In this document: one piece after another, positions 27,607 through 51,449 of the stretch | Layout of the letters: every line of letters starts with the position of its first letter | Numbering within the stretch: the stretch's first letter is position 1 | Source: Halobaculum sp. CBA1158 | GTDB lineage: Archaea; Halobacteriota; Halobacteria; Halobacteriales; Haloferacaceae | Assembly (NCBI RefSeq): GCF_021431925.1 | Contig: NZ_CP090371.1 | Coordinates: 310,001 to 374,000, forward strand | Length of the DNA: 64,000 bases | Reading direction: 5' to 3' | Position numbers and translations under genes: made by a program | Notes under the pieces: model-generated | Told to the model about the DNA's origin: nothing | What the model saw: the letters and a program-made list of their open reading frames with translations, nothing else | Database searches by the model: none

Positions 27607-27882
27607 TCAGGTCTCGCCGTCGGTGTCGGCGACGGCTCCGCCGTCCCCGTCGTCGCGGGCGTACCCCATCTTCTCGATGCACGCGATCATGCCCTCGGTG
27701 TCGGCGTGCTTGTGCAGTCGCGTCGGCGTGTCGCAGTAGTACGTCTCCCCGTCGTGGCGGAGGGTGAGGGTCCGCTCGCTCCCGAACAGGTCGGCGGTGA
27801 CGACGACCCGGCGTCCCTCGCCGAGGGCGTCCATGATCTCCTCGGCGGTGAGTTCGCCGGCGTCGACCTCCAGCGGTGACAT
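27607..27882 (-). CDS. small haloarchaeal protein of unknown function
   Basis: A 91-residue acidic protein that I do not recognise by name. It has an N-terminal ELTAEEIMDALGEGRRVVVTADLFGSERTLTLRHDGETYYCDTPTRLHKHADTEGMIACIEKMGYA core, apparently a beta-rich domain with two cysteines, and a disordered acidic tail. The start at 27882 is supported by a TATA-like AAGAAAGATACC on the minus strand about 24-34 nt upstream. The divergent glyoxalase gene begins 58 bp away. The compact alternating pattern and high Asp/Glu content argue that this is a genuine gene rather than a shadow frame. Confidence 0.75.
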   Translation of the reverse strand: MSPLEVDAGELTAEEIMDALGEGRRVVVTADLFGSERTLTLRHDGETYYCDTPTRLHKHADTEGMIACIEKMGYARDDGDGGAVADTDGET

Positions 27883-27940
27883 GGCAACGGCTTCGACGGC
27901 CGCCGGTATCTTTCTTGCCTCCGAGCCCCGATCGGCGACC

Positions 27941-28345
27941 GTGCAGGTCCGAGCCATCGACCACGTGAACCTCCGGATCCCCGCCGACGGCCTCGACGAC
28001 GCCCGCGCGTTCTACGCCGACGGTCTCGGCCTCGAACTCGAGGGCGTCGAGCGGTTCGAGTCGGGCGACAAGCCGTTCTTCGACGTGCGACTCTCCCCCG
28101 CGCACGTGATCCACCTGTGGCCCACGGAGTCGTTCGAACCGCCGACGGCGACGAACTACGACCACGTCGCGCTCGTGGTCGACGAGTCCGTGGAGACGGT
28201 GATCGACCGACTGGACGACGCCGGTATCGGCGTGGAGAAGCGTCTCGACGCCCCGCTGGGGGCGACCGGCGAGGCGGCCGCGGTGTACGTCCGCGATCCG
28301 TTCGGCTATCGCGTCGAGTTGAAAGAGCCCGTCGAGCCGGCCTGA
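27941..28345 (+). CDS. glyoxalase/VOC-family protein
   Basis: A 134-residue vicinal-oxygen-chelate protein, a single two-module metal-binding fold. The N-terminal module is AIDHVNLRIPADGLDDARAFYADGLGLELEG with metal ligand His8; the second module is NYDHVALVVDESVETVIDRLDDAGI, ending in VYVRDPFGYRVELKEP with the usual C-terminal glutamate. Substrate cannot be inferred because the fold serves glyoxalase I, dioxygenases, epimerases and resistance proteins. Start is GTG 27941, immediately before the first strand. It is convergent with the DUF5828 gene; the 161 bp between them is filled by tandem repeats. Confidence 0.88.
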   Translation: MQVRAIDHVNLRIPADGLDDARAFYADGLGLELEGVERFESGDKPFFDVRLSPAHVIHLWPTESFEPPTATNYDHVALVVDESVETVIDRLDDAGIGVEKRLDAPLGATGEAAAVYVRDPFGYRVELKEPVEPA

Positions 28346-28370
28346 GCCCCGCCCGGGACGACCGACGGAG

Positions 28371-28520
28371 TCGGCGGACGGAGCCGCCTCAGTTCGTCGT
28401 CGACCTTCTCCAGCCCGAAGACAAACGACTCGGCGGACGGAGCCGCCTCAGTTCGTCGTCGGCCTTCTCCAGCCCGAAGACAAACGACTCGGCGGACGGA
28501 GCCGCCTCAGTTCGTCGTCG
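28371..28520 (-). repeat. 59-bp tandem repeat, two full copies plus the original gene end; triplicated hairpin
   Basis: Copies begin at 28371, 28430 and 28489. The first two are 59 bp and differ at one base; the third merges into the last codons and stop of the DUF5828 gene. On the minus strand each unit has the stop-codon region, a GGCGG-CTCCGT-CCGCC stem-loop and then GTCGTTTGTCTT, resembling an intrinsic terminator. The array fills the gap between convergent genes. It looks like duplication of the gene's own 3' end, giving up to three successive terminators. Confidence 0.85.
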
Positions 28521-29220
28521 GGCTGGACTCCCCTTCGGTCCCCTCTTCGACCGTCTCCGCGGGCGGCTCCGCGCCCTCGGCCGCCTCGGCCGCCTCGACC
28601 TCCTTGGGCGTGTCGACGTGCCATCGGTCCACGTCGTCCTCGTACTCGGCCAGTCGCCCGGACACCTCCTCTTTCAGGTCGTCGTCGTTGACGTTCACCT
28701 CGAAGACGAACTCCGGACCCCCCTCGCCGCGCGTGGACTTCTGGATGTTCGCGGAGACGAGCTCGTTGTCGAAGTAGTACGGCGCGATCTGGGTCATCAC
28801 GTTCCGATAGACCGTGTTCTCGAACTTTCGAAACGCCTTCCGCCCGGCGGAGTCGGCCGCGCGAGCGACGTGGTCGATGGAGTCCCTCCAGGAGTCGAGC
28901 GCGCCGTCGTTGTCGCCGTTCTCGACGCGCTCGTACGACTCGCTCAGCTTCTCGCCCGCCGTCTGGAGGTCGTCCTCGGGAGTCTTGCCCTCCCGTTCTC
29001 CCTCGCCCTCGGCGACGCTGGCCTGGTCGGCCGTCTTCTCGTTGACGTCGTCGCCGAGGCGCTCGTGGGCCTTCGGCCGCCACTCGTCCCACGCCTCGAA
29101 GGCGTCGCGGTCGACGTCCGGTGCCCCGGCCTCGTGGAGCGCGCGAGTGATGCGCTCGCCGTGTTCGACGATGTCGCCCCACTCGCCCCGGAGTTTGAAG
29201 CCGGAGATGCTCTCTTCCAT
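28507..29220 (-). CDS. DUF5828-type haloarchaeal protein
   Basis: A 237-residue acidic protein that I place in the haloarchaeal DUF5828 family from its opening MEESISGFKLRGEWGDIVEHGERITRAL. Residues 45-100 hold a charged, Gly/Glu-rich insert; residues 100-180 contain helices and the more conserved KFENTVYRNVMTQIAPYYFDNELVSANI segment followed by EFVFEVNVNDDDL. The C-terminal 40 residues are Glu/Ala-rich and probably disordered. There is no catalytic motif, zinc site or membrane segment. Function is unknown. The 3' end has been copied into the downstream tandem repeat, leaving the frame and stop intact. Confidence 0.82.
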   Translation of the reverse strand: MEESISGFKLRGEWGDIVEHGERITRALHEAGAPDVDRDAFEAWDEWRPKAHERLGDDVNEKTADQASVAEGEGEREGKTPEDDLQTAGEKLSESYERVENGDNDGALDSWRDSIDHVARAADSAGRKAFRKFENTVYRNVMTQIAPYYFDNELVSANIQKSTRGEGGPEFVFEVNVNDDDLKEEVSGRLAEYEDDVDRWHVDTPKEVEAAEAAEGAEPPAETVEEGTEGESSPTTN

Positions 29221-29386
29221 GCGGTTGGCGACCGCCTACGCCCCGGAGCGGTATAAACAGTTCTCCACCGTCACACGACCGTCCGACGCCGCCGGTTCGA
29301 TCGTTCTCTCACCGCCGACCGCGGTCGCGAGGCGGTCGCTGACCGTCGATCAGGGACCACGAGCGTCCCGACCGACGCGCGACCGA

Positions 29387-29602
29387 TCAGCGCCTGCCGT
29401 AGGTGAGTCGATCCGCGACCCCGTCGAGCCTGTCGACGACCCCGCCGAGCCACGCGCCCGGCGAGGCCCGCTTGAGTTGATCGTCGTCGACCTCGATCCG
29501 GTCGTCGCCGAAGCGGTCGCGGTCCGCCTCGCCGTCCTCGGTCGCGTCGACCACCGTCGTCATCGAGCACCGGCCGCACGTTTCACGATCGCCGAATCCC
29601 AT
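29387..29602 (-). CDS. small acidic haloarchaeal protein with CxxC
   Basis: A 71-residue protein, MGFGDRETCGRCSMTTVVDATEDGEADRDR at the start, otherwise Asp/Arg-rich, with one CGRC pair at residues 9-12 near the N-terminus. No second cysteine pair is present, so any zinc site would need a dimer or other ligands; the CxxC might be redox-active instead. I take ATG 29602 because GATTTATTCG (minus strand) lies about 26-35 nt upstream, the spacing of a leaderless promoter. The gene is divergent from the cupin gene. The call that it is a real gene rests on composition and promoter position. Confidence 0.6.
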   Translation of the reverse strand: MGFGDRETCGRCSMTTVVDATEDGEADRDRFGDDRIEVDDDQLKRASPGAWLGGVVDRLDGVADRLTYGRR

Positions 29603-29723
29603 GACACCGAACGACACGGACGGAGAGCGAATAAATCCACGGCTCGTCGGACGGGCGCGATCGCGTTCCCGACGACGCGTCCGCGGACGACGGGCTTTTC
29701 ACGGCCGTGGGCAACCCCGGGGT

Positions 29724-30098
29724 ATGGGATACCACGTCGTGGACCCCGAGGAACTGGAGACGGTCCCCGATCGGCCCTGCGAACTCCGTCGGGTGAGCGA
29801 GGTCGCGGGGTTCGAGGAGATGGCGGCCAATTGGTTCCGGGCGGAGCCGGGCGAGGAACTCCCGCTCGCGTACCACTACCACGACGACCAGGAGGAACTG
29901 TTCTACGTCGTCGCGGGGACGCTTCACGTGGAGACGCCCGAGGAGACGTTCGAGGTGCCCGAGGGGTCGCTGTTCGCCGTCGAGCCCGAGAGTCCACAGC
30001 TGGCGTACAACCCCGAGGACGCAGACGAGCCGGTCGTCGCGCTCGCGATCGGCGCGCCCGCCGTCGACGACGTTCACGCGTACGACCCGGAGGAATGA
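29724..30098 (+). CDS. cupin-domain protein
   Basis: A 124-residue single-domain cupin, a small beta-barrel usually binding a metal ion. Motif 1 is PLAYHYHDDQEELFYVVAGTLHVETPEE (about residues 49-76), with His and Glu ligands; motif 2 is less typical (VEPESPQLAYNPEDADEPVVAL), lacking the second His. The protein is probably a sugar or small-molecule isomerase or a binding protein; activity cannot be told. Start ATG 29724 has GGCTTTTCAC about 25-33 nt upstream. A second gene follows after one base (TGAGATG), so the two are likely co-translated. Confidence 0.87.
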   Translation: MGYHVVDPEELETVPDRPCELRRVSEVAGFEEMAANWFRAEPGEELPLAYHYHDDQEELFYVVAGTLHVETPEETFEVPEGSLFAVEPESPQLAYNPEDADEPVVALAIGAPAVDDVHAYDPEE

Positions 30099-42209: not shown

Positions 42210-43390
42210 CGAGCGAGGTCGAGCGGAGCGAGACCTGGGAAACGAGCGGGGAGCGAGCGCGGTCGAGCACAGCGAGACCGCGACGGCGAACGGGGAGCGG
42301 AGCGACCCGTGAGCGCAGCGACCCGCGAGTCGCCGTCGCCGACGGCGGTACCGAACAACTGACCGCCTCCGTCGTCGGCGCGTCCGGCTTCGCGGGCGGC
42401 GAACTGTGTCGCCTGCTGACCGGACACCCGAACGTCGAACTCGTGCAGGCGACCAGCCGCGAGTACGAGAACAAGACGCTCGGCTACGTCCACCCGAACC
42501 TCCGGGGCGTCGACGTGCGCTTCTCGTCGCCGGAGGACCTCGACTCGGTGGACGTGCTGTTCGCGTCGACGCCCCACGGCGTCTCGATGGAGCACATCGA
42601 CGCCTTCCGCGACGCCGCGGGCACCGTGGTCGACCTCTCGGCGGACTTCCGCCTGAACGAGGCGGCGGACTACGACGAGTGGTACGACGGCCACGTCGCC
42701 CCCGAGCACCTCGCGGACGCGGCGTACGCGCTCCCCGAACTCGGACGCGAGAAACTGAAGGGTGCGGACCTCATCGCCTCCGGCGGCTGCAACGCCACGG
42801 CGACGATGCTGGCGCTGAAGCCGTTGGTCGATTCGGGCGTCATCACGCCCGACGACCAGGTGGTCGCGGACCTGAAGGTCGGCTCATCGGAGGGGGGAGC
42901 CGGCGGCGGTGCCGCCTCCAGCCACCCGGAGCGCTCGGGCGTCGTGCGCCCGTACGCGCCGACGGGGCACCGCCACGAGGCGGAGATCCAGCAGGAACTG
43001 GGCCTCTCGCTCTCGTTCACCGTCCACGCGGTCGACATGACCCGCGGGGCCGCGGCGACGTGTCACGCCTTCCCGAGCGAGCGCGTCACTACGGGCGACC
43101 TGTGGGGCGCGTACCGCGAGGCGTACGACGACGAGCCGTTCGTCCGCCTCGTCGCGGGCGGCGGTGGCGTGTACCGCTACCCCGAGCCGAAGGCCGTGGC
43201 CGGGACGAACCACGCCGAGGTCGGCTTCGAGCTTGACCCCGAGAACGGCCGCGTGGTCGCGTTCTCGGCCATCGACAACGTGATGAAGGGCGCGGCGGGG
43301 CAGGCGGTCCACGCCGCCAACGTCGCGCTCGGGCTGGAGGAGACGGCCGGTCTGGAGTTCCAGGGGCTCCACCCCGTGGGAGCGCCGTGA
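42206..43390 (+). CDS. argC: N-acetyl-gamma-glutamyl-phosphate (LysW-bound) reductase ArgC, with odd N-terminus
   Basis: ArgC reduces the carrier-bound gamma-glutamyl phosphate to the semialdehyde with NADPH. The catalytic part starts near residue 52: TASVVGASGFAGGELCRLL, then ASTPHGVSMEHI, the active-site cysteine in LIASGGCNATATML, and a His in APTGHRHEAEIQQ. The first 50 residues are different: Glu/Arg/Ser-rich, low-complexity, encoded by GAGCGA-type repeat DNA (42213-42330). No in-frame start lies after the repeat, and the ATG at 42206 overlaps the argX stop, so the extension is probably translated. The enzyme body is normal. Confidence 0.94.
   Translation: MTSEVERSETWETSGERARSSTARPRRRTGSGATRERSDPRVAVADGGTEQLTASVVGASGFAGGELCRLLTGHPNVELVQATSREYENKTLGYVHPNLRGVDVRFSSPEDLDSVDVLFASTPHGVSMEHIDAFRDAAGTVVDLSADFRLNEAADYDEWYDGHVAPEHLADAAYALPELGREKLKGADLIASGGCNATATMLALKPLVDSGVITPDDQVVADLKVGSSEGGAGGGAASSHPERSGVVRPYAPTGHRHEAEIQQELGLSLSFTVHAVDMTRGAAATCHAFPSERVTTGDLWGAYREAYDDEPFVRLVAGGGGVYRYPEPKAVAGTNHAEVGFELDPENGRVVAFSAIDNVMKGAAGQAVHAANVALGLEETAGLEFQGLHPVGAP
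42213..42330 (+). repeat. dispersed GAGCGA-type repeat inside argC (copy B)
   Basis: The first 120 bases of argC are built of GAGCGAG-type units (GGTCGAGCGGAGCGAGACC, CGAACGGGGAGCGGAGCG, CCCGTGAGCG). They match the spacer between the ABC genes (copy A) and a 27-bp piece of cheA (copy C, minus strand about 113-140). Here the element is in frame and open, encoding the odd N-terminal extension. Confidence 0.6.
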
Positions 43391-50589: not shown

Positions 50590-51345
50590 ATGAGCGAACG
50601 CGCGTCCGACGACACCGACGACGACTCGGGCTTCGACAAGGAGGCCGAGCGCGAGAAGCTTCGCGAGAAGTTCGCCCGCGACGAACGGAAACGCGAGTCC
50701 ACCCGGCGGATGAGTGAACTCCTCCTCAAGGGGGCGACGATGACGAACGACCACTGCGACGCCTGCGGGTCGCCAATCTTCCGGCAGAACGGCCAGGAGT
50801 TCTGCCCCGAGTGCGACATGGGCGACGGCTCCGCGGACGCGACGACGACCGACGCCGGAGCCGAGCGGGCGAAGGGAGCCGAACGGCCTGCGGACGCCGC
50901 CGAACGGCCTGCGGACGCCGCCAGCGACGTGCAGTCGCCCGGCACCGCCGGATCGGGACCGGACGGGGCGACGAGCGCGAGGCAGGACACCGCCGCGGAG
51001 CCGGACACCGCCTCGGAACCGGACGCCGGACGCCCGAACGCGACGCCCGACTCCGACGGGCTCGGCGACGACACCCCGACCCGCCGCGCGGGTCGGAGCG
51101 ACGCCGGAGCGACGCCGGAGCGACGCGACGGCTCGTCACCGACGCGGTCCGGCCGCTCCGCTACTCCCTCCGCCACGTCCTCCGGGGACGCCGCCGGCGA
51201 CCTCGCGGCCGGTCGGGACGCGCTCGCGACGGCGCTGCGCCGGCACGCCGAGGCGGCGGCCGACGAGACGGACCCGCGGACCGCCGCCGACCACCTGGCG
51301 GCCGCCCGCGAGGCGGCCGAGGCGCTGGCGGCGCTGCGTCGCTGA
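50590..51345 (+). CDS. SSSCA1 (autoantigen p27)-type zinc-ribbon protein
   Basis: A 251-residue protein with a charged N-terminal helix (EREKLREKFARDERKRESTRRMSELLLKGATM) followed by a zinc ribbon with C56, C59, C72 and C75 (HCDACGSPIF ... FCPECDMGD). This pairing is the Sjogren's syndrome/scleroderma autoantigen 1 domain, common in archaea and of unknown role. Residues 80-205 are low-complexity Ala/Asp/Pro/Thr, probably disordered, with a 21-bp tandem duplication (50881-50922) giving two ERPADAA units. A C-terminal Ala-rich helix ends the protein. The stop codon lies inside a 34-bp tandem repeat. Confidence 0.87.
   Translation: MSERASDDTDDDSGFDKEAEREKLREKFARDERKRESTRRMSELLLKGATMTNDHCDACGSPIFRQNGQEFCPECDMGDGSADATTTDAGAERAKGAERPADAAERPADAASDVQSPGTAGSGPDGATSARQDTAAEPDTASEPDAGRPNATPDSDGLGDDTPTRRAGRSDAGATPERRDGSSPTRSGRSATPSATSSGDAAGDLAAGRDALATALRRHAEAAADETDPRTAADHLAAAREAAEALAALRR
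50881..50922 (+). repeat. 21-bp in-frame tandem duplication
   Basis: Two perfect 21-bp copies encode ERPADAA twice in the disordered linker of the SSSCA1-type protein. The frame is unchanged. It looks like replication slippage in a tolerant region. Confidence 0.8.
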
Positions 51346-51449
51346 CGGTGCCGGGCCGCTGACGGTGCTGCGTCGCTGACGGTGCCGGGCCGCTGACGGT
51401 GCTGCGTCGCTGACGGTGCCGGGCCGCTGACGGTGCTGCGTCGCTGACG
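51333..51449 (+). repeat. 34-bp tandem repeat covering the stop of the SSSCA1-type gene
   Basis: Three perfect 34-bp units begin at 51333, 51367 and 51401, and a 15-bp partial unit follows at 51435. The first unit contains the last codons and TGA of the upstream gene. Units contain CGTC-GCT-GACG, able to form a small hairpin around the stop codon position, but no T-run. The array lies in the gap before the convergent hef gene. Identity of the copies suggests recent expansion. Confidence 0.88.

Follow-up and report, generated by a model that had tools for sequence, protein, structure and literature searches.

Why does a haloarchaeal gene end in a tandem repeat that runs through its own stop codon? 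The window, the whole 64,000-nucleotide stretch of the Halobaculum sp. CBA1158 genome analysed here, carries on its minus strand a gene for a protein of 237 amino acids (28507–29220, stop codon 28507–28509) that belongs to the DUF5828 family (PF19146, Pfam E-value 1e-116). Facing it on the plus strand is a convergent glyoxalase-family gene (PF00903, E-value 3.3e-10), for which the mechanical open reading frame extends from 27764 to 28345, its real start probably lying further inside. In most loci seen, across several families, STTN or PTTN forms the C terminus of the DUF5828 protein, behind a tail that is variable. A literature search returned nothing on DUF5828, nor on an element of this kind straddling a stop codon.

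The 59-bp array at the DUF5828 stop codon

The 59-bp tandem array is real and far above chance. Tandem Repeats Finder (TRF) places it at 28371–28521 on the minus strand, with a period of 59, 2.6 copies, 98% matches and a score of 295, as compared to top scores of 51–83 in 30 dinucleotide-shuffled windows. Two copies (28371–28429 and 28430–28488) differ at a single site, that is A at 28403 and G at 28462, and a third copy of 33 bases (28489–28521) crosses the stop codon into the last codons of the gene. Both TRF and the sequence thus confirm the initial annotation in that two 59-bp units with one mismatch are followed by a third merging into the DUF5828 stop. The GGCGG/CCGCC stem ascribed to each unit is likewise present on the gene strand (28491–28506, 28432–28447 and 28373–28388). 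However, the T-rich stretch said to follow every stem exists only behind the two gene-proximal ones, where it reads GAGTCGTTTGTCTTC with TTT as its longest T run; the distal stem continues with GACTCCGTCGG instead. When the own genome was searched at the DNA level, no second copy of the array turned up among the 40 of 155 candidates scored, the next best match being 30 bases long.

A two-tier hairpin that includes the last six codons

The stems noted initially are the inner part of a larger, two-tier hairpin, whose arms reach into the coding part of the gene, with which they covary. On the gene strand, each unit is ordered as arm A (the last codons), TGA, the hairpin GGCGG-CTCCGT-CCGCC, five bases and arm A', the reverse complement of A, with the inner hairpin enclosed between the two arms. 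In the gene-proximal copy, the 5' arm of the outer stem is formed by the last six codons (S S P T T N; 28510–28527), which are 89% complementary to the 3' arm at 28468–28485 (inverted repeat I2); 17 of 18 outer positions are paired, G-U included, and the inner hairpin (28491–28506) follows directly after the stop. The second inner hairpin (28432–28447) is likewise succeeded by an A' arm (28409–28426, inverted repeat I1), and the third, distal one (28373–28388) has no A' after it. A covariance model of the element matches these copies with 75.9 bits (28468–28527, a sequence that is itself part of the model), 53.2 bits (28412–28465) and 41.5 bits (28357–28401), respectively.

Folding of the 60-nt unit yields −38.6 kcal/mol (z −5.39), and 13 of 16 folded units likewise form a stable gene-end hairpin (z ≤ −3), the other three giving weak values of −2.45, −2.10 and −1.07. 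As a whole, the 221-nt region is no more stable than its shuffles, with z −0.33 on the gene strand and −0.09 on the other. Rfam gave no matches at E-values up to 1 within 27900–29300. Integron attC sites carry the core RYYYAAC ... GTTRRRY, and the left arm seen here, GACGAAC, does not fit its RYYY part.

Evidence for pairing comes from covariation. In a set of 14 species, which had been picked for having the structure and whose rows were cut to fit, 14 of 23 pairs changed on both sides (46 cells), and covariation amounted to 0.412 as compared to 0.130 after shuffling (reached in 0 of 500 shuffles) and at most 0.126 when the arms were slid. Within the inner stem, 85.7% of cells are paired and four of five pairs are altered on both sides. 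Since this set had been chosen for structure, covariation was recounted regardless of structure in all 11 Halobaculum genomes plus three genomes of genus g16 (with one row, G001, one base shorter). Here, 10 of 23 pairs changed on both sides (26 cells), which is reached by 5 of 500 shuffles, and covariation was 0.248 as compared to 0.097 (0 of 500) and at most 0.086 when slid. Third codon positions account for 24 of the 33 both-side changes in the outer stem, and the downstream arm follows.

Occurrence in relatives and apparent renewal of the copies

Matches to DUF5828 exist in 57 of 60 relatives and in 169 of 170 genomes of the family. After removal of one locus that was too short (L059), the 142 fetched loci left 141, representing 121 distinct gene ends. 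Seven of these 121 ends form 16 or more of the 18 possible Watson-Crick pairs linking the last six codons to a downstream arm, where permuted pairs predict ~0.08. With a threshold of at least 13 pairs the count is 13 against ~3 expected, so that some of the weaker cases are due to chance. Within Halobaculum, the stop-straddling layout is clear in seven of 11 genomes (the own genome, G001, G003, G004, G005, G006 and G010), partial in G007 and G009, and absent in G002 and G008. Four further genera of the Haloferacaceae carry a clear element, namely g16 (G025, G134), Halogranum (L046, L048), Halolamina (G012, G089) and g7 (G099). Its letters differ between species, and yet the 60-nt layout is almost gap-free in the 14 species: the A' arm starts 24 bases from the first stop base in 11 of them and 22–23 bases in the other three.

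Searches with the covariance model tie the element to this one gene. In 119 family genomes, every listed match above 40 bits belongs to a DUF5828 end, with 16 genomes represented; those in G089 (64.6 bits) and G007 (40.5 bits) come from outside the model. The best match away from DUF5828 reached 39.4 bits (G102), closely under the 40-bit cut, with 46 candidates scored per genome. In the own genome, the DUF5828 locus alone scored highly among the 150 of 11640 candidates scored. A dozen weaker matches were inspected, of which 11 fall within mechanical open reading frames and one is a further DUF5828 end. Weak matches at the DUF5828 stops of other genera (e.g. L167, L100) were not counted as carriers, since the conserved coding letters contained in the model would yield a score there even if no structure existed. 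Haloprofundus, at one stage taken as a clear carrier, was withdrawn, as L027, L044 and L128 reach only 16.9–22.0 bits; L027 has 13 of 18 pairs, a value reached by 2.4% of permuted pairs, along with a 54-bp repeat, and the carrier status of this genus is doubtful.

Across a phylogeny of 78 DUF5828 proteins with hand-set labels (16 carriers, including two Haloprofundus rows; L015 and L017 set as lacking the element; L151 outside the tree), at least 12 changes of the carrier label are required, at least seven of them forced by starred branches, as compared to 14.7 for shuffled labels. The element is either old with many losses or of repeated origin. At the DUF5828 end of genus g9 (G188, L160:915–1000), a different direct repeat with a period of 33 spans the stop; given this case, the DUF5828 gene end may be prone to duplication.

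The repeat period is 58–59 in 12 and 54 in two of 14 loci examined. Copies 1 and 2 are identical over their first 42 bases in the own genome, G004, G003 and G099, and 94–100% identical over the whole unit, which itself differs between species. Decay of copy 2 to 40–60% is seen in G010, H. saliterrae, g16 and Halogranum, and intermediate likeness in G001, G006, G012 and L027. A third, partial copy is present in the own genome, in Halobaculum G004 and in g7 (G099). Near-identity in some species next to decay in others makes the array look old and at times renewed. The proposal of slippage or unequal exchange made in the initial annotation fits copies that are alike within four species and differ between them. 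In G004, the A' arms of copies 1 and 2 both agree with the coding arm at one position where the noncoding A2 differs, a single case which suggests that pairing with the gene arm may be the one maintained.

How unusual is duplication across a stop codon in this genome? The background sample comprised 464 kb, that is the window plus 20 stretches of the own genome, with gene calls from a simple codon-usage script. Stop-spanning direct repeats scoring at least 18 occur at six of 354 predicted gene ends and at none of 354 permuted ones. Among strong TRF arrays, four of 12 (the DUF5828 array included) span a stop with 1.05 expected, and none spans a start (0.88 expected); at a lower threshold, nine of all 115 arrays are stop-spanning as compared to 5.04 expected, and one is start-spanning as compared to 4.50. 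This excess indicates that duplication over stop codons is recurrent and tolerated in this genome. Stop-straddling palindromes were tried as a genome-wide feature as well and rejected, inverted scores of at least 9 occurring at 12 of the 354 gene ends as compared to 15 after permutation.

Several of these sites were inspected individually. A second stop-spanning array in the window (51316–51449, about four 34-bp copies) covers the last codons and stop of the open reading frame 50590–51345, which adjoins a predicted convergent gene. It was not found by score in seven relatives with a readable gene end; L179 and L181 had no usable match, and the pair L180/L182, pieces of two contigs from a single genome, was left aside. 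By eye, L177 shows a short repeat at the homologous gene end. At L149:7115–7209, a 39-bp unit in 2.4 copies with 100% matches crosses a stop codon. Two co-directional predicted genes meet in the window at 42210–42329 in 44-bp and 16-bp GAGCGA-rich repeats, and L148:12093–12294 holds a 79-bp tandem repeat (2.5 copies, TRF score 295), which is intergenic by the simple gene calls. The L149:6847–7134 array is absent in 10 of 10 relatives, and the palindrome of L142:2009–3334 is absent in the nine relatives compared, the tenth, G010, having a distant homologue only. Thus, these two other stop-spanning repeats and the other stop-spanning palindrome are not shared within the genus, apart from the short case in L177. 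At the neighbouring gene 29601–30098, nothing comparable exists in 11 of 11. Going by these comparisons, the unusual point at DUF5828 is the shared, covarying palindrome and not duplication itself.

What keeps the element, and what it may mean

The best explanation, to which we give an even chance, is an mRNA 3'-end hairpin that is kept by selection and copied by slippage, the array being the tandem-duplicated form of an older two-tier hairpin straddling the DUF5828 stop. The last six codons would pair with an arm ~24 bases past the first stop base and thereby enclose the hairpin directly after the stop. Selection would keep this folded 3' end of the mRNA, whose outer hairpin is predicted to form once the last ribosome has left the stop codon and would then set or protect the transcript end. 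Extra copies would arise through replication slippage or unequal exchange at the palindrome and be tolerated on account of their location after the stop. Selection for a folded 3' end would explain both the near-fixed arm spacing and retention at one gene. Against selection count the fold of the 221-nt region (z −0.33), the weak z of three of 16 units and the absence or erosion of the element in four of 11 Halobaculum genomes. Moreover, selection for RNA pairing should favour G-U over A-C mismatches. With the register fixed, and omitting the two pairs adjoining the stop, the 14 loci give 197 Watson-Crick, 8 G-U, 6 A-C and 13 other cells, and a looser set of 17 loci in the best register gives 234, 14, 6 and 18, respectively. 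G-U is therefore not clearly above A-C (8 vs 6; 14 vs 6). These counts were also considered as proof of a cause at the DNA level, for which they are not decisive; a calibration on six tRNAs was too small to use.

A close rival to the selected hairpin, though tentative, is a functionless palindrome that perpetuates itself, template switching re-copying one arm from the other and slippage re-making the tandem copies. It would persist because changes past the stop do no harm and those in the coding arm are mostly synonymous. Template switching has been reported to make and repair hairpins (PMC8794818) and to homogenise the arms of inverted repeats (PMC8604942), which would explain near-exact arms and local copying. 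The arms are indeed kept alike in the 14 loci, G-U is without clear preference over A-C (8 vs 6), near-identical copies in four species show local DNA copying, and stop-spanning arrays recur in the genome (4 of 12 strong ones vs 1.05 expected). Against this rival, arm spacing is almost constant across genera, a single multi-base switch event was not demonstrated, and the other stop-spanning repeats and palindrome are unshared with relatives, which makes retention here unusual; the authors of PMC8794818 themselves consider the maintenance of short stems to be backed by circumstantial evidence. The hairpins described there by Monttinen and Loytynoja (2022) resemble the present one in showing compensatory change at many stem positions and few one-sided changes. 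They differ in that here one arm is coding, the stop lies inside the hairpin and the unit is tandemly duplicated. Similarly, inverted repeats in yeast coding genes have arms in coding DNA that are kept alike, whereas here one arm lies outside the gene and retention extends across genera, the yeast cases having been seen between strains (PMC8604942).

A further reading, to which only a small probability is assigned, is a translation-sensing archaeal 3'-end switch. Ribosomes on the last six codons would permit the small hairpin alone; after their departure, base pairing of these codons with the 3' UTR would lock the end of the transcript. In a tandem array, A' could then choose between the gene arm and the following copy as its partner, so that alternative states would result.

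The initial annotation had read the array as stacked transcription terminators that prevent collision with the convergent glyoxalase gene, and we consider this reading unlikely. Termination as such has precedents: in Haloferax volcanii, hairpins lie upstream of 503 mapped termination sites, and one hairpin located within a coding region showed 59% termination when tested (PMC7237163). The present hairpin shares with that signal type a possible role at haloarchaeal 3' ends, but it straddles a stop codon and its role in termination is putative. The same source describes the intergenic termination signal of this species as a T stretch (PMC7237163). In the first 45 bases after the stop, none of 15 element loci has a run of at least T4, so that the stretch of about T4–T5 typical of haloarchaeal terminators is lacking there; the own gene-strand intergenic region has T runs of at most 3, and a scan for hairpins plus T tails found no site in the array. 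T5 occurs further downstream in two element loci (L151 at +82, L161 at +117). T4 is uncommon in this genome anyway, being found within 160 bases of 56 of 355 sampled gene ends and between nine of 112 convergent gene pairs, and the lack of it is not in itself sufficient to discount termination. As to collision, the convergent glyoxalase gene does follow the locus in 11 Halobaculum and three g16 loci. However, the downstream marker gene is co-directional in Halogranum amylolyticum (L048), in g7 (L161, with three copies) and in Haloprofundus (L027); in L032, L046 and L151, neither marker gene is in reach. Hence, collision avoidance is unsupported as a general reason.

REP/BIME elements are alternating palindromes arranged in tandem outside genes, and the palindromic tandem units seen here resemble that layout. 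Insertion of a dispersed REP/BIME- or MITE-like element at the gene end is nevertheless very improbable: the DNA and model searches of the own genome score highly only here among the candidates scored, 11 of 12 weaker matches lie in open reading frames, and the element differs from REP/BIME in occupying, as far as scored, a single locus per genome, at one gene and with species-specific letters. Least credible is an assembly artefact, since other assemblies (G004, G099) have the layout and the third partial copy with letters of their own.

At this locus, the protein's last codons and the noncoding DNA past the stop evolve as one unit, which is freshly re-duplicated in some species. If selected, this would be an archaeal 3'-end signal that lacks a T tract and could couple translation to the fate of the transcript. 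If not, the locus would serve as a natural, long-term archive of template switches between a coding sequence and the noncoding DNA next to it. In both cases, related species that carry the element can readily be compared with those that lack it.
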